A program made the position numbers and the translations under genes. The notes under the pieces are model-generated. The model was not told where the DNA came from, made no database searches, and saw only the letters and a list, made by a program, of their open reading frames with translations. Positions 1-22,971 of a DNA stretch of 64,000 nt are shown here, one piece after another. Numbering within the stretch: the stretch's first letter is position 1; each line of letters opens with the position of its first letter. The DNA comes from Reichenbachiella sp. 5M10 (GTDB lineage: Bacteria > Bacteroidota > Bacteroidia > Cytophagales > Cyclobacteriaceae): contig NZ_MDGR01000007.1 in assembly GCF_002742335.1 (NCBI RefSeq), forward strand, positions 996,501-1,060,500. Direction: 5' to 3'.

Positions 1-830
1 CCAATGGTTACTACATTGATTTGATGTACCATGCAGAGGATTACTACGCCGTAGATCCATATTTTGGCTATGAGCTAGAGGGGGCTATGAAAGAAAATAT
101 CCTGGGAGGTGAAGCGACGATGTGGAGTGAGTTGGTGACTCCACTGACGATTGATACGCGTATTTGGCCGAGAATGGCCGCTTTGGCAGAGCGCTATTGG
201 TCTCCATCTGAGGTGAAGGATACACGTAGCATGTATAGCCGGATGGACAAGGTGTCGTTGCTATTGGAGCACTATGGAATCGAGCACATTCGTAATCATG
301 AAATGATCCTGCGAAACCTCGCCAATTCAAGAAATATAGAGCCAGTCAGGACGATTGTCAATGTACTGGAGCCAATGAAAGGGTACACTAGAAATGCAGG
401 AGGCTATATGTATAGCGTATTTTCTCCCTATACTAAACTGGCTGATGCTACGCTTGCCGATGCAGTAGATGCGGTTAGGTTGAGGTATTTGTTGGAGGAT
501 TATCAGCAAGGTAGTATGTCATCACATCTGCTTGAGGATATGTTTCGCACTTGGGTTGATAATGATGAGTTGATCCAGTCCATGGTCAAAACTTCACCCA
601 TTCTTGATCAAGCAGTGTCTCACTCTGCTAACCTCAAGGTGATCGCGATAGATGCTATGCAAGCATTGGAATACATAGAGTCAGGCAAGAAGGCTCCCAA
701 AAAGTGGTATAAGGAGTGTATCATGCATCTCGAAGAGGCCAAGCAAAATCAAAGTGGACGTGTGGAACTTCAAGTCATCGAGCCGATTCAGGCATTAGTC
801 GAAATGGCCCGAGGTGAATATTCCAACTAA
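1..830 (+). CDS. Beta-N-acetylhexosaminidase (GH20), C-terminal part, cut by window start
   Basis: The reading frame is open from base 3 to a TAA at 828-830, giving the last 275 residues. The start lies upstream of the window. The motif GGEATMWSEL (about residues 35-44 of the fragment) followed by WPRMAALAERYWS is the end of the GH20 TIM barrel, including the conserved Trp of the substrate pocket. GH20 enzymes release terminal GlcNAc or GalNAc from chitooligosaccharides and glycans by substrate-assisted catalysis; the catalytic Asp-Glu pair would be upstream of this window. The roughly 200 residues after the barrel form a helical tail without a domain I recognise. Neighbouring GlcNAc genes (SusC/SusD, NagB fusion, symporter, ROK kinase) support a chitin or GlcNAc-glycan role. 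It converges on the LytTR gene, with a terminator between them. Confidence 0.9.
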   Translation, partial: NGYYIDLMYHAEDYYAVDPYFGYELEGAMKENILGGEATMWSELVTPLTIDTRIWPRMAALAERYWSPSEVKDTRSMYSRMDKVSLLLEHYGIEHIRNHEMILRNLANSRNIEPVRTIVNVLEPMKGYTRNAGGYMYSVFSPYTKLADATLADAVDAVRLRYLLEDYQQGSMSSHLLEDMFRTWVDNDELIQSMVKTSPILDQAVSHSANLKVIAIDAMQALEYIESGKKAPKKWYKECIMHLEEAKQNQSGRVELQVIEPIQALVEMARGEYSN

Positions 831-1021: not shown

Positions 1022-1741
1022 TTAGGACAAACCCAACAGCAGGTCTTTGATGTCTTTTTGGTAATTGCGACCGATAGGAAGGAGCTTGTCCCCGATTTCG
1101 ACTTGATTGCCATCGATGACTTTGACTTTTTTGATAGCAATGATGTAGGAGCGGTGGATTCGTACAAATTCATCTGGCGGTAGCAGTTCGGCTACACTCA
1201 CGAGGTTGTTGTGGTTGATGAGGCTCTCGTCATAGGTCTTGATTCGAATGTAGTCTTTGAGGCTTTCGATGTAGAGGATTTCATCGAGATAGACTTTGAC
1301 CATTTTCTTGTCCACTTTGAAAAATACATGTGCCCTCTCGTTTTCTACCGGTAGGTTCACTTCGGATCGATTTACCTTTTTCTCCTCCAGACGATGCTCG
1401 ATACGATTGATGGTTTTCATGAATCGCTGTAGCGCAAAAGGTTTGACAAGGTAGTCCACTACGTCGAGTTCGAAACTCTCGACGGCATATTCGCGGTAGG
1501 CGGTAGTGATCACGACCATTGGTGGTTTGGACAGGCTTTTGAGAAAGTCTAGTCCATTGATCTTGGGCATGTTGATGTCGAGGAAGATTACGTCTACTTC
1601 GTTTTTAGAGAGGAAATTGAATGCCTCTACAGCGTCAGGACAGGTTCCTTTGAGATCGAATTTTTCGAAGTTGACCAAAAAATTTTTGATGACATTGATT
1701 GCCAAGGGCTCATCGTCGATTATCAAACATCGTATGCTCAT
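1022..1741 (-). CDS. LytTR-family DNA-binding response regulator
   Basis: This 239-residue protein has an N-terminal receiver domain (about 1-120) with the acidic pair D9/D10 in IIDDEP, phosphoacceptor D55 in VIFLDINMPK and the conserved Lys K100 in DYLVKPF. Its C-terminal half (about 140-239) is a LytTR DNA-binding domain, recognisable by FVRIHRSYII and LPIGRNY. It is the cytoplasmic output partner of the histidine kinase that precedes it on the same strand with only two bases between. LytTR regulators bind pairs of short direct repeats upstream of target genes. The adjacent, divergently read SusC gene is a plausible target, but I could not recognise a convincing LytTR site. Function is secure as a regulator; the target is inference. 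Confidence 0.92.
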   Translation of the reverse strand: MSIRCLIIDDEPLAINVIKNFLVNFEKFDLKGTCPDAVEAFNFLSKNEVDVIFLDINMPKINGLDFLKSLSKPPMVVITTAYREYAVESFELDVVDYLVKPFALQRFMKTINRIEHRLEEKKVNRSEVNLPVENERAHVFFKVDKKMVKVYLDEILYIESLKDYIRIKTYDESLINHNNLVSVAELLPPDEFVRIHRSYIIAIKKVKVIDGNQVEIGDKLLPIGRNYQKDIKDLLLGLS

Positions 1742-1743
1742 AG

Positions 1744-2799
1744 TTATTCAATGGGTATTTTCAATACTATCTTATATTTCTCATCTGTCTCGACGATATC
1801 GAGCTGATGCGATTCACCATAGACGAGGTTGAGTCGTCGCTTGGTGTTGGTCATGCCTACTCCGTGTTTATAGGTTTCTAAACCGTTGTCCGGAATGACA
1901 GTGTTGGGTTTTAAGTTTTCAGTCGAAAAGGTCAGTATATTATCCGTCACATCCAAGGATATATCAATCGGGATGATATCACTATCCACTTTGGTGCCGT
2001 GTTTGAAACTATTTTCTATGAACGGTAGCAATAGGACTGGGGGAATCACTTTGCCTTCAATGTCGCCCGAGATGGCTAGGTCTATCTCGATGCGATCGCC
2101 GTACCGGAGCATTTCCAAGTCGAGGTAGTTTTGTATATGTTTGATTTCGTTGACGAGTGGTACGCGTTTTTGTTTGGCATCATAGATGACATAGCTCATC
2201 AGTTCGGATAGCTTCAATACCGTATAAGGTGCTTTGTCCGATTTGTCTAGGGTCAGGGAATAGAGGTTGTTGAGCGTGTTGAAAAAAAAATGAGGCTGAA
2301 TTTGAGACTTCAAAAATGCCAATTCGGTTTCAAGATTGGTTTTGATGAGTTCGCTTGCTTTGTTTTTGAAGTCGATCCAGTCGATAGTCATTTTGACTGC
2401 CATAGCAATCGCTACCACATAGATCTGACCGATATAGGCCGCCAGTACGTAGTTGAAATCAAATAGATTGGTATGTTCGAGATTGGATTCTTTATAGATC
2501 TCCGTGGTGACCAAAAAATACGTCAATACGATCTTGATCAGTACGATAGCCAAGATGGATATGGCCAACAGGATGATGTACCAAAACACCTGCTTGGGAA
2601 TGAACCGAGGCATCAAGAAGTAGATGTTGAAATAGACGATGGCCAGGTGCAGAGGGAATTCGACCAAGTTGGATTGTAGAGAATACAAATAGTCGTCGAA
2701 GTAGCTTCCCCATCTCAGCCAATTGATACAAAAGTAGACCGACCAAAACAGGAAGTGCTGTACCCATTCGCGTTTGAGGAACTTCAATTTCTCAGGCAT
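1744..2799 (-). CDS. LytS-like sensor histidine kinase (His_kinase family)
   Basis: I chose ATG at 2799 (351 residues). An in-frame TTG at 2844 would add 15 residues but is a poorer start. The N-terminal 140 residues contain about four hydrophobic membrane segments. The H-box QIQPHFFFNTLNNL places the phosphorylated His at H170, and the N-box LLPFIENSFKHG gives N263; a glycine box GVGMTN follows. This is the LytS/YehU type of kinase without a separate HisKA domain, and it phosphorylates the LytTR regulator encoded immediately downstream. There is no obvious periplasmic sensor domain, so the signal may be sensed within the membrane. Its position back to back with a SusC/SusD pair suggests control of that locus, by inference only. 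Confidence 0.9.
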   Translation of the reverse strand: MPEKLKFLKREWVQHFLFWSVYFCINWLRWGSYFDDYLYSLQSNLVEFPLHLAIVYFNIYFLMPRFIPKQVFWYIILLAISILAIVLIKIVLTYFLVTTEIYKESNLEHTNLFDFNYVLAAYIGQIYVVAIAMAVKMTIDWIDFKNKASELIKTNLETELAFLKSQIQPHFFFNTLNNLYSLTLDKSDKAPYTVLKLSELMSYVIYDAKQKRVPLVNEIKHIQNYLDLEMLRYGDRIEIDLAISGDIEGKVIPPVLLLPFIENSFKHGTKVDSDIIPIDISLDVTDNILTFSTENLKPNTVIPDNGLETYKHGVGMTNTKRRLNLVYGESHQLDIVETDEKYKIVLKIPIE

Positions 2800-3105
2800 T
2801 TTCAGAGGAGTCTGGTCTAGTAAGAATGTATTTGAAAGAATCAAGATAAGAAAATATGGTTAAACAGATATTTATTTATGCATAATAATCAGTTAAAATA
2901 TGTTCCCATTATGAAGTCGCTATTTGGTGCTATTTTGTCGATAAAGAGCGAAATAACAGTCATTTTGTGTGGTTCGGATAAGAAGGTGTTCGTTCGGAGG
3001 AGATTTGATGTCGTTGAGCTAAAATATTACACGCTTTACGATTTAGTAACGAACATTAGGATGTTAAAATCAAAAAACGATTACTAATATTTAAAATTTA
3101 GATCT
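2800..3105. promoter_or_regulatory. Divergent intergenic region between kinase and susC
   Basis: About 306 bases separate the divergent kinase and SusC genes, and promoters for both must lie here. The sequence is AT-rich. An 11-base direct repeat TTACTAATATT occurs at 3081-3091 and again at 3118-3128, the second copy lying inside the first codons of susC. I see no clean TTG/TAnnTTTG promoter and no clear LytTR double site. A 69-codon open frame at 2878-3087 has no convincing features. Confidence 0.4.
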
Positions 3106-6100
3106 ATGACTAAAAGGTTACTAATATTGAGTTTAGCCCTGTGTACGACACTGTTCGTGCAGGCTCAGACTCGTACGGTATCTGGTAGTGTGACAGACTC
3201 CGCTAATGGAGATGCACTACCTGGAGTGAATGTACTTGTGAAGGGAACTTCGAATGGTACAGTGACAGACATTGGAGGGGCGTATACCCTAGAGGTGTCG
3301 GATGCAGATGTGTTGGTGTTTTCATTTATAGGGTACATGTCTTCGGAGCAGTTGGTCGGTACCAAGTCTGTTTTGGACGTAGCGATGGCTGCTGATGTGG
3401 AGCAGCTCGACGAAGTAGTCGTGACGGCTTTGGGTATCTCTAGGGACAAGAAGTCCTTGACCTATGCTTCGCAAGAGGTGGAAGGTGATGAATTGACTCG
3501 AGTCAAAGATGCCAACTTCATGAACTCATTGACTGGTAAGGCCGCTGGTGTATTTGTCAACAGAAGTGGGTCAGGTGTAGGCGGATCGACAAGAGTCGTA
3601 TTGAGAGGTAACTCGTCGACGAGAAACAACTCTGTACTCTATGTGATCGATGGCGTGCCAATGAACAACTACTCTCCTTCACAACCTAGTGATGTATGGG
3701 GACAGAACTTCGGCGTAGCAGGATCCGCAGGTACAGGTGGAGCAGGTAGAGATGGAGGTGATGGTATCGCCAACATCAACCCTGAAGATATCGAAAGCAT
3801 CAACGTATTGAAAGGAGCATCAGCTGCTGCACTATATGGTAGTCAAGCGGCCAATGGGGTGATCTTGATCACTACCAAAAAGGGTAAGTCGGGTAAGGTG
3901 ACAGTAGCTGCTTCGTCCAACTTCACGTCAGAGTCAGTATTGATGATGCCTGAGATGCAGTATAGCTACGGGCAGACTTCACCAGGTGCGTTGGATAGCT
4001 GGGGCGGAGCTGTGGACGCCAAGGATCACGTGACAGACTTCTTTGACAATGGAAAAACATGGATCAACACCGTATCCATCTCTGGTGGTAACGAAATGGC
4101 GCAAACGTATTTTTCTTATGCCAATACAGATTCTAAAGGTATTATTCCTTCCAACGAGTTGAAGAAACACAACGTGACGTTTAAGGAGAACTTGAGCGTG
4201 TGGAAAGATAGATTGAAACTCGATGGTAGTGTGAGTTTGATCACTCAGACAACCAAAAATCGAGCAAACTCAGGGATGTATTTCAACCCATTGACGGGTT
4301 TGTACTTCTTCCCAAGAGGATTGGATTTCGATGAATACAAGGAGCACTATGAAGTATTCAACGCGGACCGAAATTTCAACACGCAAAACTGGGTCAACAA
4401 CATTGACGTACAGCAGAACCCGTATTGGATTATCAATAGAAACAAAAATGAAGATTCAAGAAATAGAGTGATTGGAAACGTCGGAGCGACGGTGAAAATC
4501 ACCGAGGACTTGAAGTTTAGAGTACGAGGAAACATCGACAAGTCGATCGATAGATACGATCAGAGAGTACATGCCTCTACCCAAGCTACCTTGTCTGATA
4601 TCAACGGTAGATACGTACAGCAAAACGCAGAAGCAACCCAGATGTATGGAGACGCTTTGTTGATGTACAACAAGACTTTTGAGAAATTCAGCGTGTCTGC
4701 TACAGTGGGTGCCAGTATCACAGATAGCGAAGTGAAGTCACAGTTCTTTGACTCTAAGGGAGGAGATGACATCAGAAATGAAGGTGTAGAAGGCTTGTTT
4801 TATGCCAATACATTCAATATCCAAAACATCGCAGTAGGGGGGACAGCATTGTTCAACGAAGGTGGGTACCACTCACAGTTGCAGTCAGTGTTCGGTAGTT
4901 TGAATTTGGGATACAACGGCATGTTGTTCTTAGATGTGACAGGACGAAACGATTGGTCTTCTACTTTGCCTGATACGGATTTTTTCTATCCATCGGTAGG
5001 GTTGACAGCTGTGATTTCAGAAATGGTCGATATCCCATCTGTGGATCTATTGAAAGTGAGAGCATCTTTTGCCCAAGTGGGTAACGCGGTGAACGCATAT
5101 GACCTTGGGTCTGGTTCGTTCAACTCGATCATCCCTTACGGTACGGTGACTACTCCTACTAGTAGAGTGGAGCCAGGTCAGACATTGGATCCAGAAATGC
5201 AGAATTCGTTTGAGGTAGGCGCAGAGGTGTCTGTATTGAATCAGAGAGTAAGTTTGGATCTTGCATACTACAATACGGTGACTGAGAACCAGCGAATTCC
5301 AATTGTGGCACCTGCTAGTCAAGGTGGAGGATTTTTCTACATCAATGGAGGAGAAATTATCAACAAAGGGATTGAGGCTGCTTTGACTGTCGTTCCCGTT
5401 TCTACAGAGAAATTCAACTGGACGTCTACCTTGAACTTTACCAAAAACAACAACGAAGTGAAGGAATTGCCTGACGAGTTGGAGGATGGCAAGTTGCAGT
5501 TGACGGCTCCTGGAGTCAACAATTACGCGATGATGTTGACCGAAGGCTCACAGTTTGGAGATATATATGGACAGAAGTTCGCGAGAAATGCCGATGGAGC
5601 GATCATCGTAGATGCGGATGGACGTCCACAAATCCAAGAAGGTGGATTGGACTATGTAGGGAATCCAAACCCAGATTATATGTGGGGATGGAACAACAAC
5701 TTCAACTATAGAGGGATCTCGTTGGGGTTCTTGATCGATGCTCGTATCGGAGGACAAGTGATGTCTATGACCGAAGCGATGAACGACCTATATGGAGTAT
5801 CTAAGGAGACTGCTGATGCAAGAGATGCGGGTGGAGTAGACATGGATGCAGTCTATGCCGACGGTACACCATATGTAGGTCTATTGCCAGCGCAGGAGTT
5901 CTATACCACAGTAGGAGGTAGAGCAGGTATCACCGAACAGTACGTGTACAGTGCGACCAACATCCGATTGAGAGAGATGTCGATTGGGTATTCATTGCCT
6001 TCGTCAGTGATGGAAAAATTGGGGCCAATCAAAACGGCTAAAGTGTCACTGATTGGTAGAAACTTGTTTTTCTTCAAGAATGACGCACCATTCGATCCAG

Positions 6101-6198
6101 ACGTGTCTATGTCCACAGGGACAGGATTGCAGGGGGTTCATGTATTCGGGTTGCCTTCGACAAGAAGCATCGGTTTCAACCTGTCTTTGACTCTATAA
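3106..6198 (+). CDS. SusC/RagA-family TonB-dependent outer-membrane transporter (GlcNAc/chitin-type locus)
   Basis: The 1030-residue product starts with a signal peptide ending near LFVQAQ (residue 21). It has an N-terminal carboxypeptidase-regulatory-like beta domain (about 23-100), the SusC/TonB-box region DEVVVTALG (about 104-112), a plug domain with INPEDIESINVLKGASAAALYG, and a 22-strand beta-barrel ending in an aromatic-poor strand GFNLSLTL. SusC proteins import oligosaccharides across the outer membrane using TonB energy and form a lidded pair with SusD. The SusD gene follows after 27 bases. Nearby GH20, NagB-PIG-L, symporter and ROK kinase genes suggest a chitooligosaccharide or GlcNAc-containing substrate. 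Confidence 0.95.
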   Translation: MTKRLLILSLALCTTLFVQAQTRTVSGSVTDSANGDALPGVNVLVKGTSNGTVTDIGGAYTLEVSDADVLVFSFIGYMSSEQLVGTKSVLDVAMAADVEQLDEVVVTALGISRDKKSLTYASQEVEGDELTRVKDANFMNSLTGKAAGVFVNRSGSGVGGSTRVVLRGNSSTRNNSVLYVIDGVPMNNYSPSQPSDVWGQNFGVAGSAGTGGAGRDGGDGIANINPEDIESINVLKGASAAALYGSQAANGVILITTKKGKSGKVTVAASSNFTSESVLMMPEMQYSYGQTSPGALDSWGGAVDAKDHVTDFFDNGKTWINTVSISGGNEMAQTYFSYANTDSKGIIPSNELKKHNVTFKENLSVWKDRLKLDGSVSLITQTTKNRANSGMYFNPLTGLYFFPRGLDFDEYKEHYEVFNADRNFNTQNWVNNIDVQQNPYWIINRNKNEDSRNRVIGNVGATVKITEDLKFRVRGNIDKSIDRYDQRVHASTQATLSDINGRYVQQNAEATQMYGDALLMYNKTFEKFSVSATVGASITDSEVKSQFFDSKGGDDIRNEGVEGLFYANTFNIQNIAVGGTALFNEGGYHSQLQSVFGSLNLGYNGMLFLDVTGRNDWSSTLPDTDFFYPSVGLTAVISEMVDIPSVDLLKVRASFAQVGNAVNAYDLGSGSFNSIIPYGTVTTPTSRVEPGQTLDPEMQNSFEVGAEVSVLNQRVSLDLAYYNTVTENQRIPIVAPASQGGGFFYINGGEIINKGIEAALTVVPVSTEKFNWTSTLNFTKNNNEVKELPDELEDGKLQLTAPGVNNYAMMLTEGSQFGDIYGQKFARNADGAIIVDADGRPQIQEGGLDYVGNPNPDYMWGWNNNFNYRGISLGFLIDARIGGQVMSMTEAMNDLYGVSKETADARDAGGVDMDAVYADGTPYVGLLPAQEFYTTVGGRAGITEQYVYSATNIRLREMSIGYSLPSSVMEKLGPIKTAKVSLIGRNLFFFKNDAPFDPDVSMSTGTGLQGVHVFGLPSTRSIGFNLSLTL

Positions 6199-6225: not shown

Positions 6226-7800
6226 ATGAAAATAAATAAGATATATAAATCAATGCTTGCCTTAGGAACTGCCTCTATGCTGACAGTTGCGATGCAAGGT
6301 TGTACCGATAAATTCGAGGAAATCAATACCAATCCATACGGTATCTCCAACGAAGCACTGACACAGGACTTTAATCATATTGGAGGTCGCGTCGTACAGG
6401 CTACTCAAAACATCTATGTGATTACTCCTGCATGGGTGACTCAGTTGCAGCAGAACTTGAACGCCGACATCTACAGTGGATATTTGGCTCCACCTACGCC
6501 TTTTGCTGGCAACATCAACAACAATACCTACAGTCTAGTCGACGGTTGGAATGGATTCATCTGGTCTTCGGCCTACGAAAGTGTGATGTACCCATTGGCA
6601 ACTATGGATGAAACTGCAGGCGATGAATTTCCTCAGTTTGTAGCTTGGGGCAAGATCGTACGAGTAGAAGCGATGCACAGAGTGTCGGATGTATTCGGGC
6701 CGATCATTTATTCACAGTATGGTCAGTCCCCTGCCATGTATGATTCTCAAGAAGAGGTGTACAAGCAGTTTGTCGCGGATCTCGATGATGCGATCACGGT
6801 ACTAGAGCAGTACAAGGACTTTTCAGGGTTTACAAAATTTGACTTGGTATATGGAGGAAACGTGACCAGTTGGATCAAGTTTGCCAATTCACTGAAGTTG
6901 AGATTGGCAATCAGAATGTCTGATGTCGATCCCGCTTACGCGAAAACAATCGGAGAAGAAGCTTTGGCATCTACCGCAGGCTTCATCGAAGATAATTCAG
7001 AGAATTTTACTCTATCGCCTACTGCAGGAGATCATCCACTCAACACCCTCAGTGGTGCATGGGGAGATACACGCATGAGTGCTGAGATGGAGTCAATATT
7101 GACTGGGTACAATGATCCTAGAATGGCGGTTTATTTCGCTGCTGCTACGGATGCTACCATTGCAGGACAGCACAAAGGAGTGCGTAGTGGAATCGAGATT
7201 GAATCCAAGGATACTTACGTAGGTCACTCTGCTGTCGCTACTCAAGGCGGAGTTCAACTCATGACTGCTGCAGAGGTGGCCTTCTTGAAGGCCGAGGCAG
7301 CATTGCTTGGGTGGGCGAATGCAGGAACTGCTCAAGCCAACTACGAAGCAGGTATTGCATTATCTTTTGCTCAACATGGAGCAGGAGGAGCGGATACTTA
7401 CATGACAGATGCGACGAGTATGCCAGCTCCATTTGTAGATACATACAATTCGGACAACGACGTTTTGGCGGGTGACCCTAACTTGAGTACAGCGACTATC
7501 GCGTGGGATGCTGCTGCGACGGACGAAGAACTGTTGGAGAAAATCATCACGCAGAAGTGGATAGCTGTATTTCCTGACGGTCAAGAGGCTTGGTCAGAAT
7601 TCAGAAGAACAGGTTATCCCAAAAAATTCCCTAATGTGGTGAACTATAGCAACGGGACAATTGATACGGATGAGCAGATCAAAAGGATCAATTTTTCAGC
7701 GACCGAGTTGACTACCAACCCTGACGGAGTAGCTTCTGGTATCCAAGAGCTTGGAGGACCGGATACAGGTGGTACTTCGCTTTGGTGGGATGTAGACTAA
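6226..7800 (+). CDS. SusD-like surface glycan-binding lipoprotein (SusD/RagB family)
   Basis: The 524-residue product has a lipoprotein signal with lipobox VAMQGC, Cys at C26, and the helical TPR-like scaffold of the SusD-like group in which the protein begins TDKFEEINTNPYG. It would be anchored on the outer membrane surface and cap the SusC barrel, delivering sugar to it. It is co-transcribed with the SusC gene 27 bases upstream and is followed by a strong terminator, so susC-susD form a two-gene unit separate from the downstream catabolic genes. It belongs to the same subfamily as many chitin-locus SusD-like proteins by general look, but substrate is inferred from context only. Confidence 0.92.
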   Translation: MKINKIYKSMLALGTASMLTVAMQGCTDKFEEINTNPYGISNEALTQDFNHIGGRVVQATQNIYVITPAWVTQLQQNLNADIYSGYLAPPTPFAGNINNNTYSLVDGWNGFIWSSAYESVMYPLATMDETAGDEFPQFVAWGKIVRVEAMHRVSDVFGPIIYSQYGQSPAMYDSQEEVYKQFVADLDDAITVLEQYKDFSGFTKFDLVYGGNVTSWIKFANSLKLRLAIRMSDVDPAYAKTIGEEALASTAGFIEDNSENFTLSPTAGDHPLNTLSGAWGDTRMSAEMESILTGYNDPRMAVYFAAATDATIAGQHKGVRSGIEIESKDTYVGHSAVATQGGVQLMTAAEVAFLKAEAALLGWANAGTAQANYEAGIALSFAQHGAGGADTYMTDATSMPAPFVDTYNSDNDVLAGDPNLSTATIAWDAAATDEELLEKIITQKWIAVFPDGQEAWSEFRRTGYPKKFPNVVNYSNGTIDTDEQIKRINFSATELTTNPDGVASGIQELGGPDTGGTSLWWDVD

Positions 7801-7845: not shown

Positions 7846-7873
7846 AAGAGCCGTGGAGACACGGCTCTTTTTG
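7846..7873 (+). terminator. Rho-independent terminator after susD
   Basis: A perfect 10-bp stem, AAGAGCCGTG (7846-7855) with CACGGCTCTT (7860-7869), closes a GAGA loop and runs into a T-rich tail. It ends the susC-susD transcript. Confidence 0.92.
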
Positions 7874-8354: not shown

Positions 8355-10310
8355 ATGATCACACTACAAGAGAAACCAAAAATGAAGCGAGTAAGCAAAA
8401 AAGAGTGGAACACGTTGGAGTCTACCAAATTTGAAAAGATTCACACAGAGATATTTTCTGACGCAGACGAGGCTTCCAAGATCGTAGCGCATGAGATTGC
8501 CGCATTGATTCGTTACAAAACCGAAAAAAATGAGAAATGTGTACTCGGTTTGGCGACTGGTTCGTCCCCGATCCGTGTCTACAAAGAGCTGATTCGCTTG
8601 CATCAGCAAGAAGGACTTAGTTTCCAAAACGTCGTGTCTTTTAACCTAGATGAGTATTACGGTTTAGACAAGGAGGATGTGCAGAGTTATATCTATTTCA
8701 TGCATCATCACCTTTTTGATCATGTCGATATTCTTCCCGAAAACATCAATATCCCCAATGGGAAAGTACCCTTTGAGTACATGTCAGAGGCTTGTACGCA
8801 GTACGAAGAGAAAATAGAGAGCTACGGAGGGCTTGATTTTCAGCTGCTGGGAATAGGTCGTACAGGTCATATCGGGTTCAATGAGCCGGGTTCGAAAATC
8901 AACTCACTGACACGAATGATCACGCTGGATCATTTGACGATTCAAGACAATGCCTTTGCTTTCAACAGTATGTCCGAGGTACCAACAAAGGCTGTAACCA
9001 TGGGGGTCGGGACAATCATGAAGGCCCGAAGAGTTGTGATCCTGGCCTGGGGGATGAAAAAATCTGAAATAGTGAAGAAAACGGTCGAAGGGGAGATCTC
9101 CTCGGATGTACCTGCGACATTCTTACAAGAGCACAACGATGTGTCATTTGTCATGGACGAGTCCGCAGCGCTGGATTTGACTAGGATCCAGACACCGTGG
9201 ATAGTGGGAGATTGTGATTGGACAGAAGCATTGAAGCGCAAAGCGGTCGTATGGCTCAGCCAAAAAGTGAAAAAACCTATATTGAAGCTCACTGACCGGG
9301 ATTACAATGATCACGGCATGTCCGAGATATTGGGAGAAGGAGGGAGCTATGCAGTCAATATCAAGATGTTTAATCATTTTCAGCATACGATCACAGGCTG
9401 GCCTGGAGGTAAGCCCAAAGCAGACGACAGTCATAGACCTGAGCGTGCGACACCGGAGCGCAAGCGCGTCATTATATTCTCACCACATCCAGATGATGAT
9501 GTCATTTCGATGGGAGGAACCTTTTTGCGATTGGTAGAGCAAGGGCATGAAGTGCATGTGGCGTACCAGACTTCAGGCAATATCGCGGTAGCAGACCATG
9601 AGGCTTATCGGTTTGCAGAGTTTGCCAAACAATTGTACGAATACACGGCAGGAGAGCAGGCAGATCACCAACTATTCGAGGGATTGTTTAAACAGCTCAA
9701 ATCCAAGGCTAAGAAAGAGGTCTTGCCAGAAGATATTCGAAAAATCAAAGGCTTGATTCGGAGAGGAGAAGCAATCAGCGCATGTCGCTACTACGGGATT
9801 CCAGATAGTCAAGTACATCACATGGATTTGCCGTTTTACGAAACAGGTCGTGTAGAGAAGAGCCCGCTGGGCAAGGCTGACATCAAAATGATCAAAGACT
9901 TGATCGAGGAGGTCAAGCCTCACCAAATTTACGCCGCTGGGGACTTGGCGGACCCACATGGTACGCACGAGGTATGTCTCAAGGGGATTTTTGCGGCACT
10001 CGAAGAACTCAAAGTAGAAAAATTCATGAAGGACTGCTGGGTGTGGCTATATCGTGGAGCGTGGCATGAGTTTCCAATCGACGAGATCGAAATGGCCGTA
10101 CCGATTAGTCCAGAGGAATTGATGAAGAAACGTGTGGCCATTTGGAGACATCAATCTCAAAAGGATGGTGTGGTGTTTCAAGGAGAAGATGATCGCGAAT
10201 TTTGGCAGAGATCAGAGGATCGAAATCGGGCGACGGCCGCAGAGTACGATGCACTCGGATTACCGGAGTATGAGGCCATAGAGGGCTTTGTGAGATATCA
10301 TTTCCAATAA
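8355..10310 (+). CDS. nagB: Glucosamine-6-phosphate deaminase (NagB) fused to PIG-L/LmbE-type deacetylase domain
   Basis: The 651-residue protein joins two enzymes. Residues 25-310 are a NagB isomerase/deaminase, which turns glucosamine-6-phosphate into fructose-6-phosphate and ammonia, with phosphate loop LATGSSP, D99 in FNLDEYYG, H172 and E177 in GHIGFNEPGS. The position of E. coli Asp141 (GxDGH) is Thr170 here. Residues 370-651 are a PIG-L/LmbE domain with the zinc motif SPHPDDD (H378, D380, D381) and a second site DPHGTH (H535, H538); such domains remove N-acetyl groups from GlcNAc moieties. A further ATG lies at residue 10. The enzyme is cytoplasmic and is followed after 67 bases by a symporter and a kinase. 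With no nagA nearby, the C-terminal domain may provide GlcNAc-6-phosphate deacetylation; that is inference. Confidence 0.93.
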   Translation: MITLQEKPKMKRVSKKEWNTLESTKFEKIHTEIFSDADEASKIVAHEIAALIRYKTEKNEKCVLGLATGSSPIRVYKELIRLHQQEGLSFQNVVSFNLDEYYGLDKEDVQSYIYFMHHHLFDHVDILPENINIPNGKVPFEYMSEACTQYEEKIESYGGLDFQLLGIGRTGHIGFNEPGSKINSLTRMITLDHLTIQDNAFAFNSMSEVPTKAVTMGVGTIMKARRVVILAWGMKKSEIVKKTVEGEISSDVPATFLQEHNDVSFVMDESAALDLTRIQTPWIVGDCDWTEALKRKAVVWLSQKVKKPILKLTDRDYNDHGMSEILGEGGSYAVNIKMFNHFQHTITGWPGGKPKADDSHRPERATPERKRVIIFSPHPDDDVISMGGTFLRLVEQGHEVHVAYQTSGNIAVADHEAYRFAEFAKQLYEYTAGEQADHQLFEGLFKQLKSKAKKEVLPEDIRKIKGLIRRGEAISACRYYGIPDSQVHHMDLPFYETGRVEKSPLGKADIKMIKDLIEEVKPHQIYAAGDLADPHGTHEVCLKGIFAALEELKVEKFMKDCWVWLYRGAWHEFPIDEIEMAVPISPEELMKKRVAIWRHQSQKDGVVFQGEDDREFWQRSEDRNRATAAEYDALGLPEYEAIEGFVRYHFQ

Positions 10311-10377: not shown

Positions 10378-12183
10378 ATGTTATTAGAAACTATAGATTG
10401 GGTGATCATTGGGGTGTTCTTTGTCATTGTGTTGGGGATTGGCTGGCAAGCTTCTCGTTCGGCAGGGCAGAGCTCAAGTGAGTTTTTCTTGGGAGGTAGA
10501 GGGATGCCGTGGTGGCTACTGGGGATCTCGATGGTTGCCTGTACATTTTCGGCTGATACGCCAAACCTTGTGACGGGTTTCGTTCGTGAAAATGGCGTGG
10601 TGAAGAACTGGGCTTGGTGGGCCTTTTTGATCACAGGTATGGTGACAGTTTTTATTTATGCTCGATTGTGGAGAAAATCTGCCGTCAGTACTGATCTAGA
10701 GTTTTATGAGCTGAGATATGGAGGCAAGCGTGCTTCTTTTCTTAGAGGGTTTAGAGCGATCTATCTGGGTGTGTTTTTCAATTGCCTCATCATGGGATCG
10801 GTGACCTTGGCGGCAATCAAGATTGGTGGTGTCATGCTTGGTTTGGATCCTTGGGTTGTCGTAGTGGGCGCTTCGATAGTCGTCGTTATTTATTCGGCAC
10901 TGGGCGGAATCAAAGGGGTCGTTTGGGCGGATTTTTTCCAATACGGGATTGCGATGTTTGGTGCTGTGTATGCGGCGTACGTGGCTTTGAGTCAGCCAGA
11001 GGTTGGTGGTTTGACCAATCTCATTACACATCCTGCGGTCCAATCCAAACTCAGTGTTGTTCCTGATTTTACTGATCCATCGGTTTGGGTGCCCTTGCTA
11101 CTGTTTCCTATAGCGGTACAGTGGTGGGCGGTTTGGTATCCAGGTGCTGAGCCTGGAGGAGGAGGATATATTGCGCAACGTATGCTTTCGGCCAAAGACG
11201 AAAAAAATGCAGTAGGAGCAACTTTGCTCTTCAATTTTGCACACTATGCCTTGAGGCCTTGGCCATGGATCATCGTGGCGCTTGCTTCGATTATTATTTA
11301 TCCAGACATGGCTTCCATCCAAGCAGAGTTTCCAAACATCGATCCGACCTATTTGAAAGATGACATTGCCTATCCCGTCATGTTGTCCAAGCTTGGGTCT
11401 GGGTGGCTCGGACTCGTGGTGGCATCCATCATCGCTGCATACATGTCGACGATCGGTACTCATCTCAATTGGGGGTCATCGTATTTTGTCAATGATTTTT
11501 ACAAGCGATTTGTGAAGCCAGATGCTTCGGAAAAACAAATGGTTGCTATGGGACGAATGACTACAGTAGTACTGATGTTTTTTGCGGGGACTTTGTCATT
11601 GACCATCTTGGACAATGCGACGGATGCGTTCAATATCCTCTTGTTGTCGGGAGCAGGTTCGGGAGCGATTTATTTGTTCAGGTGGTTTTGGTGGAGAATC
11701 AACGCTTTGACGGAGATTGTCGCGATGGTGGTAGCGACCGTACTGGCTGTTGTACTGACGCTTTTTGTAGACGATGCTACAGTGGCGACTGCCTTGCTGG
11801 ACGGTATGACGATGAAAATATTGATCACTACAGGGGTGGTCACAGTTGCTTGGTTGGGGACGGCCTTGTTTACAGCACCTGAAGACAAAGAGGTCCTGAG
11901 GTCTTTTTACAAATTGACACGGCCAGGTGGTCCGGGTTGGAAAAAGGTAGTAGAAGAAGCTGCTCAAGATGGACAACCTTGTGACGAGAATGAGGGAATT
12001 ACTTGGCAAATGCCGAGACAAGTATTGTTGATTTTTATTGGCTGTACAGTGATCTATTCTTCATTGTTTGCCATTGGAGGGTTTGTGTACTCCAATTGGA
12101 CACAAGGCACTATCTTATCTGTTGTAGCTGTGCTTGGTACGGTGATGTTGTTCAAAGTTATGAGCAAGCTTAAACTGAACTAA
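10378..12183 (+). CDS. Sodium:solute symporter (SSS family), probable amino-sugar transporter
   Basis: The 601-residue protein is almost entirely hydrophobic, with about 13-14 membrane helices beginning at WVIIGVFFVIVLGIGW. The motif GGRGMPWWLLGISMVACTFSAD near residues 38-57 is the conserved first-helices signature of SSS sodium/solute symporters, and the length fits the larger sugar-transporting members. It would move a monosaccharide across the inner membrane with sodium. Lying between the NagB fusion and a ROK kinase, with one base to the kinase, it most likely imports GlcNAc (inference). Longer hydrophilic loop at about 500-545 separates the last helices. Confidence 0.9.
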   Translation: MLLETIDWVIIGVFFVIVLGIGWQASRSAGQSSSEFFLGGRGMPWWLLGISMVACTFSADTPNLVTGFVRENGVVKNWAWWAFLITGMVTVFIYARLWRKSAVSTDLEFYELRYGGKRASFLRGFRAIYLGVFFNCLIMGSVTLAAIKIGGVMLGLDPWVVVVGASIVVVIYSALGGIKGVVWADFFQYGIAMFGAVYAAYVALSQPEVGGLTNLITHPAVQSKLSVVPDFTDPSVWVPLLLFPIAVQWWAVWYPGAEPGGGGYIAQRMLSAKDEKNAVGATLLFNFAHYALRPWPWIIVALASIIIYPDMASIQAEFPNIDPTYLKDDIAYPVMLSKLGSGWLGLVVASIIAAYMSTIGTHLNWGSSYFVNDFYKRFVKPDASEKQMVAMGRMTTVVLMFFAGTLSLTILDNATDAFNILLLSGAGSGAIYLFRWFWWRINALTEIVAMVVATVLAVVLTLFVDDATVATALLDGMTMKILITTGVVTVAWLGTALFTAPEDKEVLRSFYKLTRPGGPGWKKVVEEAAQDGQPCDENEGITWQMPRQVLLIFIGCTVIYSSLFAIGGFVYSNWTQGTILSVVAVLGTVMLFKVMSKLKLN

Positions 12184-12184
12184 A

Positions 12185-13162
12185 ATGATCAAGGTAACGG
12201 CAGGGATAGATATAGGAGGGACAGGTACGCAGTTTGGTCTCGTAGATCCCGACGGACAAGTGTTGACAGAGGGGAAAGTAGATACGCGTGGTACGCATAG
12301 TTTCGAAGAGTTTATTGATAAGATTGCTGCATTTCTGCGACAGCATTTGGTAGAGAATCCTGGCTTGGAATTGACCGGGATTGGCGTGGGGGCTCCTAGC
12401 GGAAACTACTATACGGGGACGATAACTGATGCGCCAAACCTACCCTGGAAGGGCACATTGGACGTTGTGCAGTTGCTCAATGATCGTTTTCATGTGCCGG
12501 TAGTACTGAGCAATGATGCCAACGCTACGGCAATGGGTGAGAAGGTGTTTGGCGCTGCAAAAGACATAAAGGATTTTGTGATGATCACCTTAGGGACTGG
12601 TTTGGGCAGTGGGATTGTGAGTAGCCAACAGTTGGTCATAGGTAGTCAAAGTATGGCTGCCGAATTTGGGCATGTCATGGTTCGTGACAAAGGTGGCCGT
12701 TTGTGTAACTGTGGACGAAGAGGGTGCTTAGAGACCTATGTGTCTGCTACGGGGATCAAACGTACGTTGACTTCTTTGCTTGCAAAACACCCTTGTGCAA
12801 GTGCTTTGCGTAGTGTGTCATTTGATGATTTGACCTCCAAGGATATAGCGCATGCAGCGCGAAGTGGAGATGTGTTGGCCAAGAAGGCATTTCAAAAGAC
12901 AGGAAGAGTACTGGGTAAGAATTTGGCAAACCTGGTGGCTATCATGAACCCAGAAGCTATTTTCTTGTTTGGTGGTTTGGCACAAGCTGGAGATTTGATT
13001 TTTAATCCGACACGAAGAGCCTTGGAGGAGAATCTACTCGATATGTACAAAGGAAAGGTACAAGTTTTACCGTCTGCTTTGGGGAGTCAAGGAGCTGCTA
13101 TTCTAGGGGCTGCTAGCTTAGCGCATCAGCAAAAAGATTATTTGCATTACGAATTGAGTTAG
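12185..13162 (+). CDS. ROK-family sugar kinase (glucokinase/N-acetylglucosamine kinase type)
   Basis: The 325-residue cytoplasmic kinase has the ATP phosphate-binding loop GIDIGGTGTQFGLV (7-20), catalytic D111 in LSNDANATAMGE, E160 and H163 in AAEFGHV, and the ROK zinc site CNCGRRGCLE (C174, C176, C181). It lacks an N-terminal winged helix, so it is an enzyme and not a ROK repressor. ROK kinases phosphorylate glucose, GlcNAc or related hexoses at O6. The ATG comes one base after the symporter stop, so the two are translated from one message. In this setting GlcNAc phosphorylation is the most likely reaction; glucokinase activity cannot be excluded. Confidence 0.92.
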   Translation: MIKVTAGIDIGGTGTQFGLVDPDGQVLTEGKVDTRGTHSFEEFIDKIAAFLRQHLVENPGLELTGIGVGAPSGNYYTGTITDAPNLPWKGTLDVVQLLNDRFHVPVVLSNDANATAMGEKVFGAAKDIKDFVMITLGTGLGSGIVSSQQLVIGSQSMAAEFGHVMVRDKGGRLCNCGRRGCLETYVSATGIKRTLTSLLAKHPCASALRSVSFDDLTSKDIAHAARSGDVLAKKAFQKTGRVLGKNLANLVAIMNPEAIFLFGGLAQAGDLIFNPTRRALEENLLDMYKGKVQVLPSALGSQGAAILGAASLAHQQKDYLHYELS

Positions 13163-20235: not shown

Positions 20236-22971
20236 ATGCAAACTTACTTAGAATATAGTTTATTACGTCTTTTCCTAATGCGAGTTGGGTTAATCTTTTT
20301 CCTATTAGCCCCCATGCATTTTGCGACGATGGCCAGAGATCAAGAGTCTTCCGGGGATAGAGACTCTTTGTATGTTTCTTGGAGCAAAAGTAAATCTCAA
20401 CTGCCTGTAGTAGCGATTGATTTGTTGCATTTTGATGATATGTATCAACGTCAGCGTTTGGAAGATTTGATCTTGAGTTATGGTGTTGGGACTGTTTTTT
20501 TGCAGGATGGAGCGTATGGAGAGGTGAGTCAGTGGATTGCGTCTATCAATCAAACCTCTGTTGTCGATCCGATCTTTGTGGTCAAGGCACGTGGAGTGTT
20601 TGGTTTGCCGTTTGGGCAATTGGAGGGGCTACCGAGTGATGATTGGGTGGTGTGCTGGACAGACCAGACGATGATTCATCAGCTAGCGGAGAGCAATGCC
20701 GCTTTGTTGCACCGTATGGGAGTTTCTGTCCTTCAGTACGATTATTTCCCTTCCGAGTATAAGACTGCGGAGGTAGAGAAGGCGTTACTGTACATGAAGT
20801 TAATGCAAGAGAAGGGGATTCATTTGTCCTTTGGTAATAGTGCTGCAAAATTTGTAACAAAACATCAGTCCGAGATCGATTGGAGCAAAGTGGTATGGCT
20901 TGAGTCGGGAATGCTGGAAAAAGATGCATTGGTCAAGAAGAAATTGCGAAAGAAGTTTGACAAAGTGACGGGGTTTGAGGGGTTGGTGATGGAGGATATT
21001 GCGACCCATAGTCTGTCAGACAACAAGAAGAATCAATGGGATAATGGGATTCAACTACTCAAAATGGGAAACTATTCGAATCACCATAGTGTATTGGATG
21101 AGCTCATAGAGTCAGGGATAATCAAAAAATCATACTTCAAGCAAGCAGTCAAAGCATACTATCAGCAATGGCATGTACTGCAGTCTGATCGAAAAGCATA
21201 CCCTACGCCGTTTGATCCTCTCAATCCTCAAATGACCTATCGCTACAAAGTCAAGGCTATTACTTTGGTGAAGGATCTAGGGGATTTGTTTCCGATCCAG
21301 GATTTGAAATCTAATTTATTTTATTCTTTTTCCACAAGTCGTCATGAAGAGGTGTTTCGTCAAACGATGGATCGCTATACTTACAATGAGCATTTGCCAA
21401 TGAGCTGGTTAGCGTATTCTCCAGACAGTTTGATGCAAATATTGCCTCGGGGCAGTCATTTGTTGGTGGATTTGACTGGTGTAGTACGAAGGGAAGAAGT
21501 ACAGACTTATGTCGAGCGCTTAATCCACATGTCACGATACTATCAAGTAGGAGTGGTTTACCAAGGAGTCCCATCCAATCTCAAATATTTGGAGCAATTG
21601 CCCGTGCTACTATGGAGTCCAGATGTGTCTTCCGAGGGTATGAGTTTTATGGTGCAGATGGCTTTTGGAGGAATGGATATGAGTGGGGCATTGCCTGCCT
21701 TTCTTTCGGCAACTGGTCAACAGGCTGGAGTGCAGAAGCCTTCGTTGCATCGATTAAAATACCTGGACCCAAAATTGCTCAGAGTAGACGAAACCAAGTT
21801 GGCTCAAATAGATCGGTTAGTGGAGGAGGCTATTCGAGACGAACAATTCCCGGGTTGTCAAATCATGATGGTCAAAGACGGAGCAGTTGTGTACAACAAG
21901 AGTTTTGGTTATTTGACATATGATAGTCTAGAAGCTGTCGGTTGGAACCATATCTATGATATAGCCTCGGTGACCAAAACCGTAGCTACTGTACCCATGG
22001 TGATGCAAGAAGTTTCCAAAGGGAATTTGGCTTTGGAGGGGCGCTTAGGAGATTATTCGGACAGGTTTAGAGAAACCGACAAATCTAATTTGCGTGTCGG
22101 TGATTTACTGATGCATCAGTCAGGATTGCGATCCTATATTCCTTTTTGGGCCAATGCCGAGTACGTAAAAGATAGCGCCGATTTTTTGTATAAGAAGCGT
22201 GTGAGGCGCCGTAAGTACGAGTATTCGTCGGTCAACTGGGCGGACTCGATCAGTACTTGGATTGGTACGTCTACATTCAATAGTCTACGAAACCCTGACA
22301 GCACATATCGGTATTTATACAGTGACTTGGGGTTCATGATTATGAAAGAGGTAGTGGAGGAGAAAGAGCATCTTTCGTTGGACGAGCTGGCAGATAGCTT
22401 GATCTATGAGCCTTTGGCAATGAATTATACGCATTACAATCCATTGCGATATTTTGCGGAAGCACAAATTGCTCCGACCGAGCAAGACGACACATTTCGA
22501 GGCAATCTACTGCGTGGGCAGGTGCATGATCGTAATGCTGCTTTGCTCGGGGGAGTGAGTGGGCATGCCGGTTTGTTTTCGAATAGCAACGATCTAGCCA
22601 AATACATGCAGATGATGATGCAGTCAGGAACTTATGGAGGACATCAGTTTTTTGATAGCACACTTGTGGAGACCTTTACCGAAAAAATCAATCCCGACAA
22701 TTTACGGGCTTTTGGGTGGGATAAACCCCGCCATGCAGTAGGGAATTGTTCGAAATACGCCTCTGAGTATGCTTTTGGGCATTCTGGATTCACTGGGACT
22801 GTGGTGTGGGCTGATCCAGAAAATGGTCTGATCTACATCTTTTTATCCAACAGAATTTATCCAGATCCACAAAATTACAAACTCATCAAGAACAATACAC
22901 GTACTAAGATTCATGATCTCATGTATGAAGCGATTTTATCTCAGGATAAGGTTGTGAATCATGAGATGTAA
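20236..22971 (+). CDS. Class C beta-lactamase-like serine hydrolase with degenerate GH3-like N-terminal domain
   Basis: The 911-residue protein has an N-terminal hydrophobic export segment (about 10-32). Residues 515-905 are a class C beta-lactamase/PBP-like hydrolase with SxxK as SVTK (S578, K581), a YSD motif in YLYSDLGF and HSGFTGT in place of the KTG box. Residues 50-500 follow the layout of the GH3 half of Bacteroidota GH3-hydrolase fusions: a barrel-like region with GLVMEDIATHS, where D254 matches the GH3 nucleophile, and a later alpha/beta part. The NagZ KHFPGHG motif is not present, so glycosidase activity is doubtful. The likely theme is peptidoglycan or cell-wall peptide metabolism in the periplasm. 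Its neighbour 3' is bshA. Confidence 0.82.
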   Translation: MQTYLEYSLLRLFLMRVGLIFFLLAPMHFATMARDQESSGDRDSLYVSWSKSKSQLPVVAIDLLHFDDMYQRQRLEDLILSYGVGTVFLQDGAYGEVSQWIASINQTSVVDPIFVVKARGVFGLPFGQLEGLPSDDWVVCWTDQTMIHQLAESNAALLHRMGVSVLQYDYFPSEYKTAEVEKALLYMKLMQEKGIHLSFGNSAAKFVTKHQSEIDWSKVVWLESGMLEKDALVKKKLRKKFDKVTGFEGLVMEDIATHSLSDNKKNQWDNGIQLLKMGNYSNHHSVLDELIESGIIKKSYFKQAVKAYYQQWHVLQSDRKAYPTPFDPLNPQMTYRYKVKAITLVKDLGDLFPIQDLKSNLFYSFSTSRHEEVFRQTMDRYTYNEHLPMSWLAYSPDSLMQILPRGSHLLVDLTGVVRREEVQTYVERLIHMSRYYQVGVVYQGVPSNLKYLEQLPVLLWSPDVSSEGMSFMVQMAFGGMDMSGALPAFLSATGQQAGVQKPSLHRLKYLDPKLLRVDETKLAQIDRLVEEAIRDEQFPGCQIMMVKDGAVVYNKSFGYLTYDSLEAVGWNHIYDIASVTKTVATVPMVMQEVSKGNLALEGRLGDYSDRFRETDKSNLRVGDLLMHQSGLRSYIPFWANAEYVKDSADFLYKKRVRRRKYEYSSVNWADSISTWIGTSTFNSLRNPDSTYRYLYSDLGFMIMKEVVEEKEHLSLDELADSLIYEPLAMNYTHYNPLRYFAEAQIAPTEQDDTFRGNLLRGQVHDRNAALLGGVSGHAGLFSNSNDLAKYMQMMMQSGTYGGHQFFDSTLVETFTEKINPDNLRAFGWDKPRHAVGNCSKYASEYAFGHSGFTGTVVWADPENGLIYIFLSNRIYPDPQNYKLIKNNTRTKIHDLMYEAILSQDKVVNHEM

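Follow-up and report, generated by a model that had tools for sequence, protein, structure and literature searches.

How does Reichenbachiella sp. 5M10 break down N-acetylglucosamine (GlcNAc), given that its GlcNAc locus encodes a glucosamine-6-phosphate (GlcN-6-P) deaminase, NagB, fused to a PIG-L domain, and holds no gene for the deacetylase NagA? For Bacteroidota, the GlcNAc in chitin, mucus and peptidoglycan is an important source of both carbon and nitrogen. We analysed a stretch of 64,000 nucleotides of this genome (contig NZ_MDGR01000007.1, positions 996,501 to 1,060,500), hereafter the window, the first letter of which is position 1 of the coordinates given below.

The fused protein and its gene neighbourhood

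The fused gene is an uninterrupted open reading frame on the plus strand, running from the ATG at 8355 to the stop at 10310 and encoding 651 amino acids. As a sequence-only reading of the locus had stated, a NagB deaminase and a PIG-L deacetylase are joined in one protein, with both domains scoring above their Pfam cut-offs: Glucosamine_iso at residues 36–261 (78.1 bits, cut-off 27) and PIG-L (PF02585) at residues 374–548 (67 bits, cut-off 28.2). The NagB half also exceeds the cut-off of the nagB equivalog TIGR00502 (281.4 against 236.9 bits), and Pfam and NCBIfam scans of the protein detected no NagA amidohydrolase domain. The whole chain belongs to NCBIfam NF002557/PRK02122 (1032.6 bits against a cut-off of 384; residues 4–650 on a model of 653 positions), with which it shares both Pfam domains and a full-length match, and from which it shows no architectural difference; the NagB–PIG-L architecture is already catalogued in databases and is not new. 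The name of the entry, glucosamine-6-phosphate deaminase-like protein, is silent on the PIG-L half. The open-access literature yielded no paper on NagB with PIG-L, on GlcN-6-P deaminase with LmbE or on PRK02122, and none on this fusion was among the top matches of broader searches, as judged by title and the start of the abstract; the available parts of PMC5583593 and PMC6016474 contain nothing on PIG-L. We found no biochemistry on the PIG-L half of the fusion, the function of which appears untested in the open literature covered.

The fusion is present above the cut-off in 7 of the 8 sampled genomes of the genus, in 156 of 295 of the family (Cyclobacteriaceae) and in 121 of 296 of the phylum, the nearest named relatives found, at 87% and 82% identity, being those of Reichenbachiella agariperforans and R. 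faecimaris, respectively. Two or three copies are present in some genomes. Three members of the genus have a second fused paralogue, approximately 55–58% identical, in different neighbourhoods (G414:C6, locus L211; G443:C15, L210; G484:C1, L212), and G500:C10:4492–5615 is a broken copy with several stops. The features of the locus are as follows.

21..830, plus strand: C-terminal part of a GH20 beta-N-acetylhexosaminidase (PF00728)
1022..1741, minus strand: response regulator, presumably of the LytTR type; best NCBIfam matches BtsR and LytR, below their cut-offs
1744..2844, minus strand: presumed partner sensor kinase, so named from its position, with no NCBIfam hit; relatives adjoin other loci of the fusion
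3106..6198, plus strand: TonB-dependent receptor with plug and carboxypeptidase-like domains (Pfam), which we take to be SusC-like from its position
6226..7800, plus strand: SusD-like glycan-binding lipoprotein (PF12741)
8355..10310, plus strand: fused NagB–linker–PIG-L protein, 651 amino acids (Pfam, NCBIfam NF002557/PRK02122)
8439..9182, plus strand: NagB half, approximately residues 29–276, with Asp99, Thr170, His172 and Glu177 in active-site columns (Pfam, alignments, fold comparison)
8862..8864, plus strand: codon of Thr170, in the column of E. coli Asp141 (alignment)
9183..9452, plus strand: conserved linker, residues 277–366, with no Pfam match (Pfam, conservation)
9453..10307, plus strand: PIG-L/LmbE half, residues 367–651, with HPDD at 378–381 and HGTH at 535–538 (Pfam, alignment, fold comparison)
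10378..12183, plus strand: sodium:solute symporter, presumed GlcNAc importer (PF00474)
12185..13162, plus strand: ROK family sugar kinase, presumed GlcNAc kinase (Pfam; no NCBIfam kinase model above its cut-off)

In the window, then, the regulator and presumed sensor on the minus strand are followed by SusC, SusD, the fusion, the symporter and the kinase, with the end of the GH20 gene at 21–830. A hairpin followed by a run of T, seen by eye at 7848–7872, 47 bases past susD, and not listed by the terminator scan, may part susCD from a unit of fusion, symporter and kinase. Farther along, 20236–22971 (plus strand) encodes a protein of 911 amino acids with a beta-lactamase/PBP4B-like C-terminal part (residues 525–878), the first 500 residues having no Pfam match (E 0.001).

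SusCD, fusion and ROK kinase recur in all seven fused loci that we read in the genus. The symporter is found in four of these (the window, L002, L136 and L208), and the remaining three (L001, L137 and L207) carry a NagX-like gene (matches of 203 and 194 bits, below the curated cut-off of 480) and a frame weakly similar to GlcNAc kinases of the BadF type. According to the available part of PMC9007349, fitness data led to the proposal that NagX acetylates periplasmic glucosamine (GlcN) to GlcNAc, NagA is involved in four of the five bacteria of that study (Figure 3A–3D), and Figure 3E concerns Echinicola vietnamensis, for which the paper finds NagX to matter and does not report NagA. Since NagX would make GlcNAc from GlcN, a deacetylase would have to follow. 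In the farther relatives L141 and L225, ROK, fusion, GH20, NagX and symporter genes lie in a row. Over a wider set, however, only 21 of 50 loci hold a relative of the symporter, ROK, GH20 or NagX query genes (E 1e-10). This set comprises 49 loci with a fused gene and one (L220) with none; L206 and L209, whose contigs have matching lengths, appear to duplicate L002 and L001, and the count leaves out L149 and L213 (fused frame missed by the ORF filter), L131–L134 and L139 (not fused) and L201–L205 (split form or other class). A nagA gene lies in two of the 49 fused-gene loci, adjacent in L217 and at approximately 5 kb in L218, and it was for the nearness of nagA that L217, L218 and L220 were chosen. 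At L007:4596–11887 (plus strand), a sulfatase with an N-sulphoglucosamine-type C-terminus, a galactokinase-like gene and a nucleotidyltransferase precede a symporter and the fusion, a hint that sulfated glycans are the source; the symporter comes before the fusion in L007, L009 and L010, contigs of metagenome-assembled genomes named as Flavobacteriaceae or Bacteroidetes.

Active-site residues and fold of the two halves

In the NagB half, Asp99, His172 and Glu177 fall in the columns of the catalytic residues Asp72, His143 and Glu148 of E. coli NagB; they are kept in 39, 39 and 40 of the 40 rows of alignment A1 of fusions. The sequence-only reading had placed Thr170 at the position of E. coli Asp141, and the alignment agrees: the fusion reads RTGHIGFNEP from residue 169, where the E. 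coli chain 1jt9 reads GNDGHIAFNEP. The further suggestion that, owing to Thr170, the NagB half may work differently or depend on the PIG-L half has lost ground, as the column varies (Thr, Asn, Ser, Asp and, rarely, Val), the solved B. subtilis NagB has Asn, and Asp99, His172 and Glu177 are kept. Of 41 aligned fusions, 38 have Thr at residue 170, 2 have Asn and 1 has Val, and the 40 rows of A1 show Thr 35 times, Asn and Ser twice each and Val once; Thr is typical of the fusions and not a peculiarity of this one gene. In 30 stand-alone NagBs of the phylum the column holds Asp 21 times and Asn 9 times. Because Asn occupies it in those nine proteins and in the B. subtilis structure 2bkv, Asp at this position, although absent from the fusion, does not define the NagB family. 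We reject Thr170 as the sign of a defective or unusual NagB; on these alignments it is best read as a mark of the fused family.

The closest solved NagB is 2bkv, the monomeric GlcN-6-P deaminase of B. subtilis, with 44–45% identity (2bkv_B on the NagB half: Z 34.4, rmsd 1.5 over 242 residues). Like the fusion it has a residue other than Asp in the Asp141 column; unlike the fusion, it has Asn rather than Thr there and lacks a PIG-L half. In a tree of 75 NagB-type domains, a branch supported at 100/99 has the 40 fused ones together on the same side. Two ungrouped rows, the stand-alone NagB of L004 and the split NagB of G219 (see below), fall among them; both are on long branches, that of G219 with an odd composition, and their exact place in the tree is unsure.

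The PIG-L half carries the HxDD + H motif as His378-Pro-Asp380-Asp381 and His538, residues that provide the metal ligands and general base of PIG-L enzymes (available part of PMC4101496). All four are present in 40 of 40 rows of A1; in the 41 aligned fusions the first three are invariant and His538 is kept in 40, with Gln once. Thr537 (9963–9965), Thr in all 40 rows, takes the place of the Asp in the H-x-D-H segment of PIG-L enzymes (Asp146 of MshB), a register set by the motif and not by model coordinates. Without this Asp, at most 1% of MshB activity is left, according to the same part of PMC4101496. Both halves of the fusion thus carry Thr (170 and 537) where reference enzymes have Asp. Over the 40 rows, invariant residues make up 22% of the PIG-L half and 17% of the NagB half, and the mean frequency of the top residue is 0.707 and 0.718, respectively; by these alignment measures the PIG-L half is as conserved as the NagB half.

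The AF2 model of the fusion (pLDDT 85.1, pTM 0.75) aligns the PIG-L half with BshB (6p2t and 6ull; Z 23.5, rmsd 2.6, 208 residues), BC1534 (2ixd; Z 23.0), diacetylchitobiose deacetylases (3wl3, 8bgo; Z 22.2–22.8) and MshB (4ewl; Z 18.8). These PIG-L/LmbE deacetylases share the fold and the HxDD + H motif; the fusion differs from them in its sequence (approximately 20–22% identity over the domain in structural alignment), in having Thr for the Asp of H-x-D-H and in being joined to NagB. By sequence, the nearest solved PIG-L relatives are archaeal diacetylchitobiose deacetylases. The same comparison also matches a hydratase, GalB (5cgz), at Z 21.6, so that the reaction of the PIG-L half cannot be read from its fold alone. 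The linker, residues 277–366, is barely probed: some rows of diacetylchitobiose deacetylases start at 281–287 (rmsd 3.5–5.2) and none covers the linker alone, a sparse structural coverage that gives no evidence for a new fold.

NagA and related gene arrangements

The sequence-only reading had found nagA missing from the locus. It is absent from the locus genes, and the genome, which is 98.57% complete, gave no match to the NagA model TIGR00221, which matched in 14 of 14 control genomes (7 above cut-off), nor to a NagA protein of the same family (Cyclobacteriaceae) used as query. Five amidohydrolases (PF01979) were detected. Of these, four have adenine deaminase, formimidoylglutamate deiminase, dihydroorotase and imidazolonepropionase as their best NCBIfam matches, in a scan of the matched stretches in which dihydroorotase alone exceeds its cut-off; the fifth (L236) remains unnamed, and its matched stretch fits no NagA model of NCBIfam. 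A nagA hidden elsewhere in the genome was thus sought by all three routes, and none emerged. Likewise, none of the 8 sampled genomes of the genus has a NagA-level match, the best being 4.4e-9 over a short stretch of a 1141-residue frame; the same-family NagA query matched weakly, over short stretches, in 5 of these genomes (best 9.1e-6, over 60 residues of a 1095-residue frame).

In the family sample, a NagA-like gene is found in 44 of 156 genomes with the fusion as against 22 of 27 with a stand-alone NagB (p 2e-7, Fisher test ignoring kinship), in 26 of 51 with only a weak NagB-like match and in 2 of 61 with neither. The phylum sample gives 29 of 121 fused against 17 of 26 stand-alone genomes (p 1e-4, likewise ignoring kinship). 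Significance is lost, however, when each genus is represented by one genome (19 of 50 fused against 4 of 5 stand-alone, p 0.15, Fisher; p 0.30 for fused against stand-alone plus weak NagB). The trend is in line with replacement of NagA but falls short of proof, and strict replacement has against it the 44 and 29 fused genomes that also have a NagA-like gene. Classes were sorted by hand from best E-values: fused, approximately 1e-150 or lower; stand-alone NagB, 2e-45 to 1e-92 in the family and approximately 1e-61 to 1e-92 in the phylum; NagA-like, 4e-20 or lower in the family and approximately 2e-49 or lower in the phylum. NagA above the curated cut-off alone is present in 40 of 295 family and 42 of 296 phylum genomes. 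TIGR00502 confirmed a real NagB in 26 of 26 stand-alone phylum genomes, one of which (G219) has the split form, and in the 5 tried of the 27 in the family, one of which (G434) has fused congeners and may be a fragment. The nagA of G068 directly adjoins a fused gene whose motifs are intact, and that of G245 lies approximately 5 kb from a fused gene.

A deaminase-like domain is also found joined to NagA itself. In three members of the family, NagB-like and NagA-like domains share one frame of 625–668 amino acids (L131:2354–4357, L132:2239–4122 and L133:2293–4167, all on the minus strand), with NagA domains of 223.7, 189 and 222.6 bits (cut-off 225.65); both domains of these frames are below their equivalog cut-offs. 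They are the three checked among 17 family genomes in which a frame of 624–668 amino acids gives a NagA-like match. Like the window protein, they have an N-terminal deaminase-like domain joined to a deacetylase domain in one chain; they differ in that the second domain is NagA-like and that the NagB-like halves of L131 and L133 are on a distant branch. The pairing of deaminase and deacetylase seems, from these sequences, to have arisen also with a different deacetylase.

Conversely, the two halves occur apart in G219 (L201:5178–6856, minus strand), where a NagB of 265 and a PIG-L protein of 306 amino acids are separate, overlapping frames that keep the metal motif and adjoin a two-component pair; the genome has no NagA-level match (best 3.3e-5). 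In the fusion at L034:1486–3465 (plus strand), Tyr and Asn replace NagB residues Asp99 and His172 while the PIG-L motif is intact; with the former lost and the latter kept, the PIG-L half seems to serve a purpose apart from the NagB half. At L004:7008–9795 (plus strand), a fusion with both NagB and PIG-L residues changed comes just downstream of a stand-alone NagB with Ser in the Asp141 column. There is also a second, more distant class of NagB + PIG-L proteins, of 781–802 amino acids (L204:5167–7509 and L203:3530–5905 on the plus strand, L202:5419–7824 and L205:5646–8021 on the minus strand). Its NagB-like part is divergent, the PIG-L-like part of L202, L204 and L205 has PHHDD and DPEGSGPDTH motifs, and ROK genes flank the frames of L203 and L204.

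A predicted route without NagA and its alternatives

We somewhat favour the reading that the fusion is a bifunctional GlcNAc-6-phosphate (GlcNAc-6-P) deacetylase and GlcN-6-P deaminase in which the PIG-L domain replaces NagA. The GH20 enzyme and the SusCD pair would release and collect GlcNAc, the symporter would import it and the ROK kinase would convert it to GlcNAc-6-P. In the cytoplasm the fusion would then work as one bifunctional enzyme: its PIG-L half, with a single metal on His378, Asp381 and His538 and Asp380 as the base, would hydrolyse the N-acetyl group to yield GlcN-6-P and acetate, and its NagB half would convert GlcN-6-P to fructose-6-phosphate and ammonia. The PIG-L half would thereby take over the reaction and the pathway position of NagA (TIGR00221), an unrelated enzyme that, by Pfam names, belongs to an amidohydrolase family different from PIG-L. 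The two domains, their conserved metal-site and catalytic residues, the gene order and a genome search that gave no nagA match are observations; we infer that the PIG-L half is active, that GlcNAc-6-P is its substrate, which way the pathway runs and what the symporter and kinase do. The phosphorylated substrate is our proposal, and we know of no PIG-L enzyme with GlcNAc-6-P as its main substrate.

Several lines of evidence lead us to this reading: a genome with no nagA match in a genus whose 8 sampled genomes include 7 with the fusion and none with a NagA-level match; a PIG-L half as conserved as NagB by alignment, with metal and base residues kept and a fold that aligns to deacetylases; a locus with SusCD, ROK kinase and either a symporter or a NagX-like gene; and the analogous NagB–NagA fusions, the separate halves of G219 and the lower share of genomes with a NagA-like gene among those with the fusion than among those with a stand-alone NagB. 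Given that no ordinary deacetylase gene was found, the extra PIG-L half probably does the deacetylase job of the pathway. Against the bifunctional reading stand the NagA-like genes of 44 of 156 and 29 of 121 fused genomes, beside the fusion in G068 and approximately 5 kb away in G245, an association that is not significant with one genome per genus, the fold shared with GalB, Thr537 in place of the H-x-D-H Asp, and the presence of a symporter, ROK, GH20 or NagX relative in only 21 of 50 loci. We also count against it the data on F. johnsoniae, for which the available part of PMC5127042 predicts a separate NagA and reports that deletion of the nagB of the locus was without effect on chitin use, three more nagB-like genes being present; these data bear on the fusion only if that NagB is fused. 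The proposal of the sequence-only reading that one chain takes GlcNAc-6-P to fructose-6-phosphate without NagA has accordingly gained from the genome search, the neighbourhood, the metal-site residues and the NagB–NagA analogy, and is tempered by the NagA-like genes kept in the family; the activities are predictions.

An unlikely alternative, in which NagA would still be replaced and only the order of steps would differ, is that deacetylation precedes phosphorylation, with the PIG-L half acting on free GlcNAc or chitobiose and the ROK kinase on glucosamine. The nearest solved relatives by sequence, the archaeal diacetylchitobiose deacetylases, act on unphosphorylated sugars, and the ROK kinase is below the cut-off of every kinase model listed, which leaves its substrate open; fusions, however, usually join consecutive steps, between which the kinase would here intervene, and the NagB–NagA frames join the deaminase-like domain to one for which GlcNAc-6-P is the known substrate. 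Slightly less probable again is a PIG-L half that acts on another acetylated amino sugar or conjugate, GlcNAc-6-P being handled by an enzyme invisible to profile searches. This would suit the many fused genomes that keep a NagA-like gene, in one case beside the fusion, the two or three copies in some genomes, and the different neighbours in some loci, such as the sulfatase and galactokinase-like genes of L007, but TIGR00221, PF01979 and the NagA query left no other candidate in the genome except the one unnamed amidohydrolase. That the PIG-L half is a non-catalytic sensor regulating the NagB half is very improbable: activation of E. coli NagB by GlcNAc-6-P would fit, as would Thr537 in place of a residue important in MshB, yet the metal ligands and base are in 40 of 40 rows (and in all but one of 41 in the other alignment), L034 has lost NagB residues and kept those of PIG-L, the reverse of what a mere regulator predicts, and the halves in G219 are separate frames.

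We see about an even chance that GlcNAc is broken down without NagA across a large part of the phylum, by way of a PIG-L GlcNAc-6-P deacetylase fused to the deaminase, that one family has joined both reactions in two independent ways (NagB–PIG-L and NagB–NagA), and that the PIG-L half, with Thr for the usual Asp beside a metal-binding His, is the first of its superfamily to act on a sugar phosphate of central catabolism, a first to our knowledge and within the open-access literature searched. If the PIG-L half does replace NagA, the gap that annotation leaves in this pathway would be filled in many Bacteroidota genomes and growth predictions would change, and the PIG-L superfamily would gain a role in central amino-sugar breakdown.
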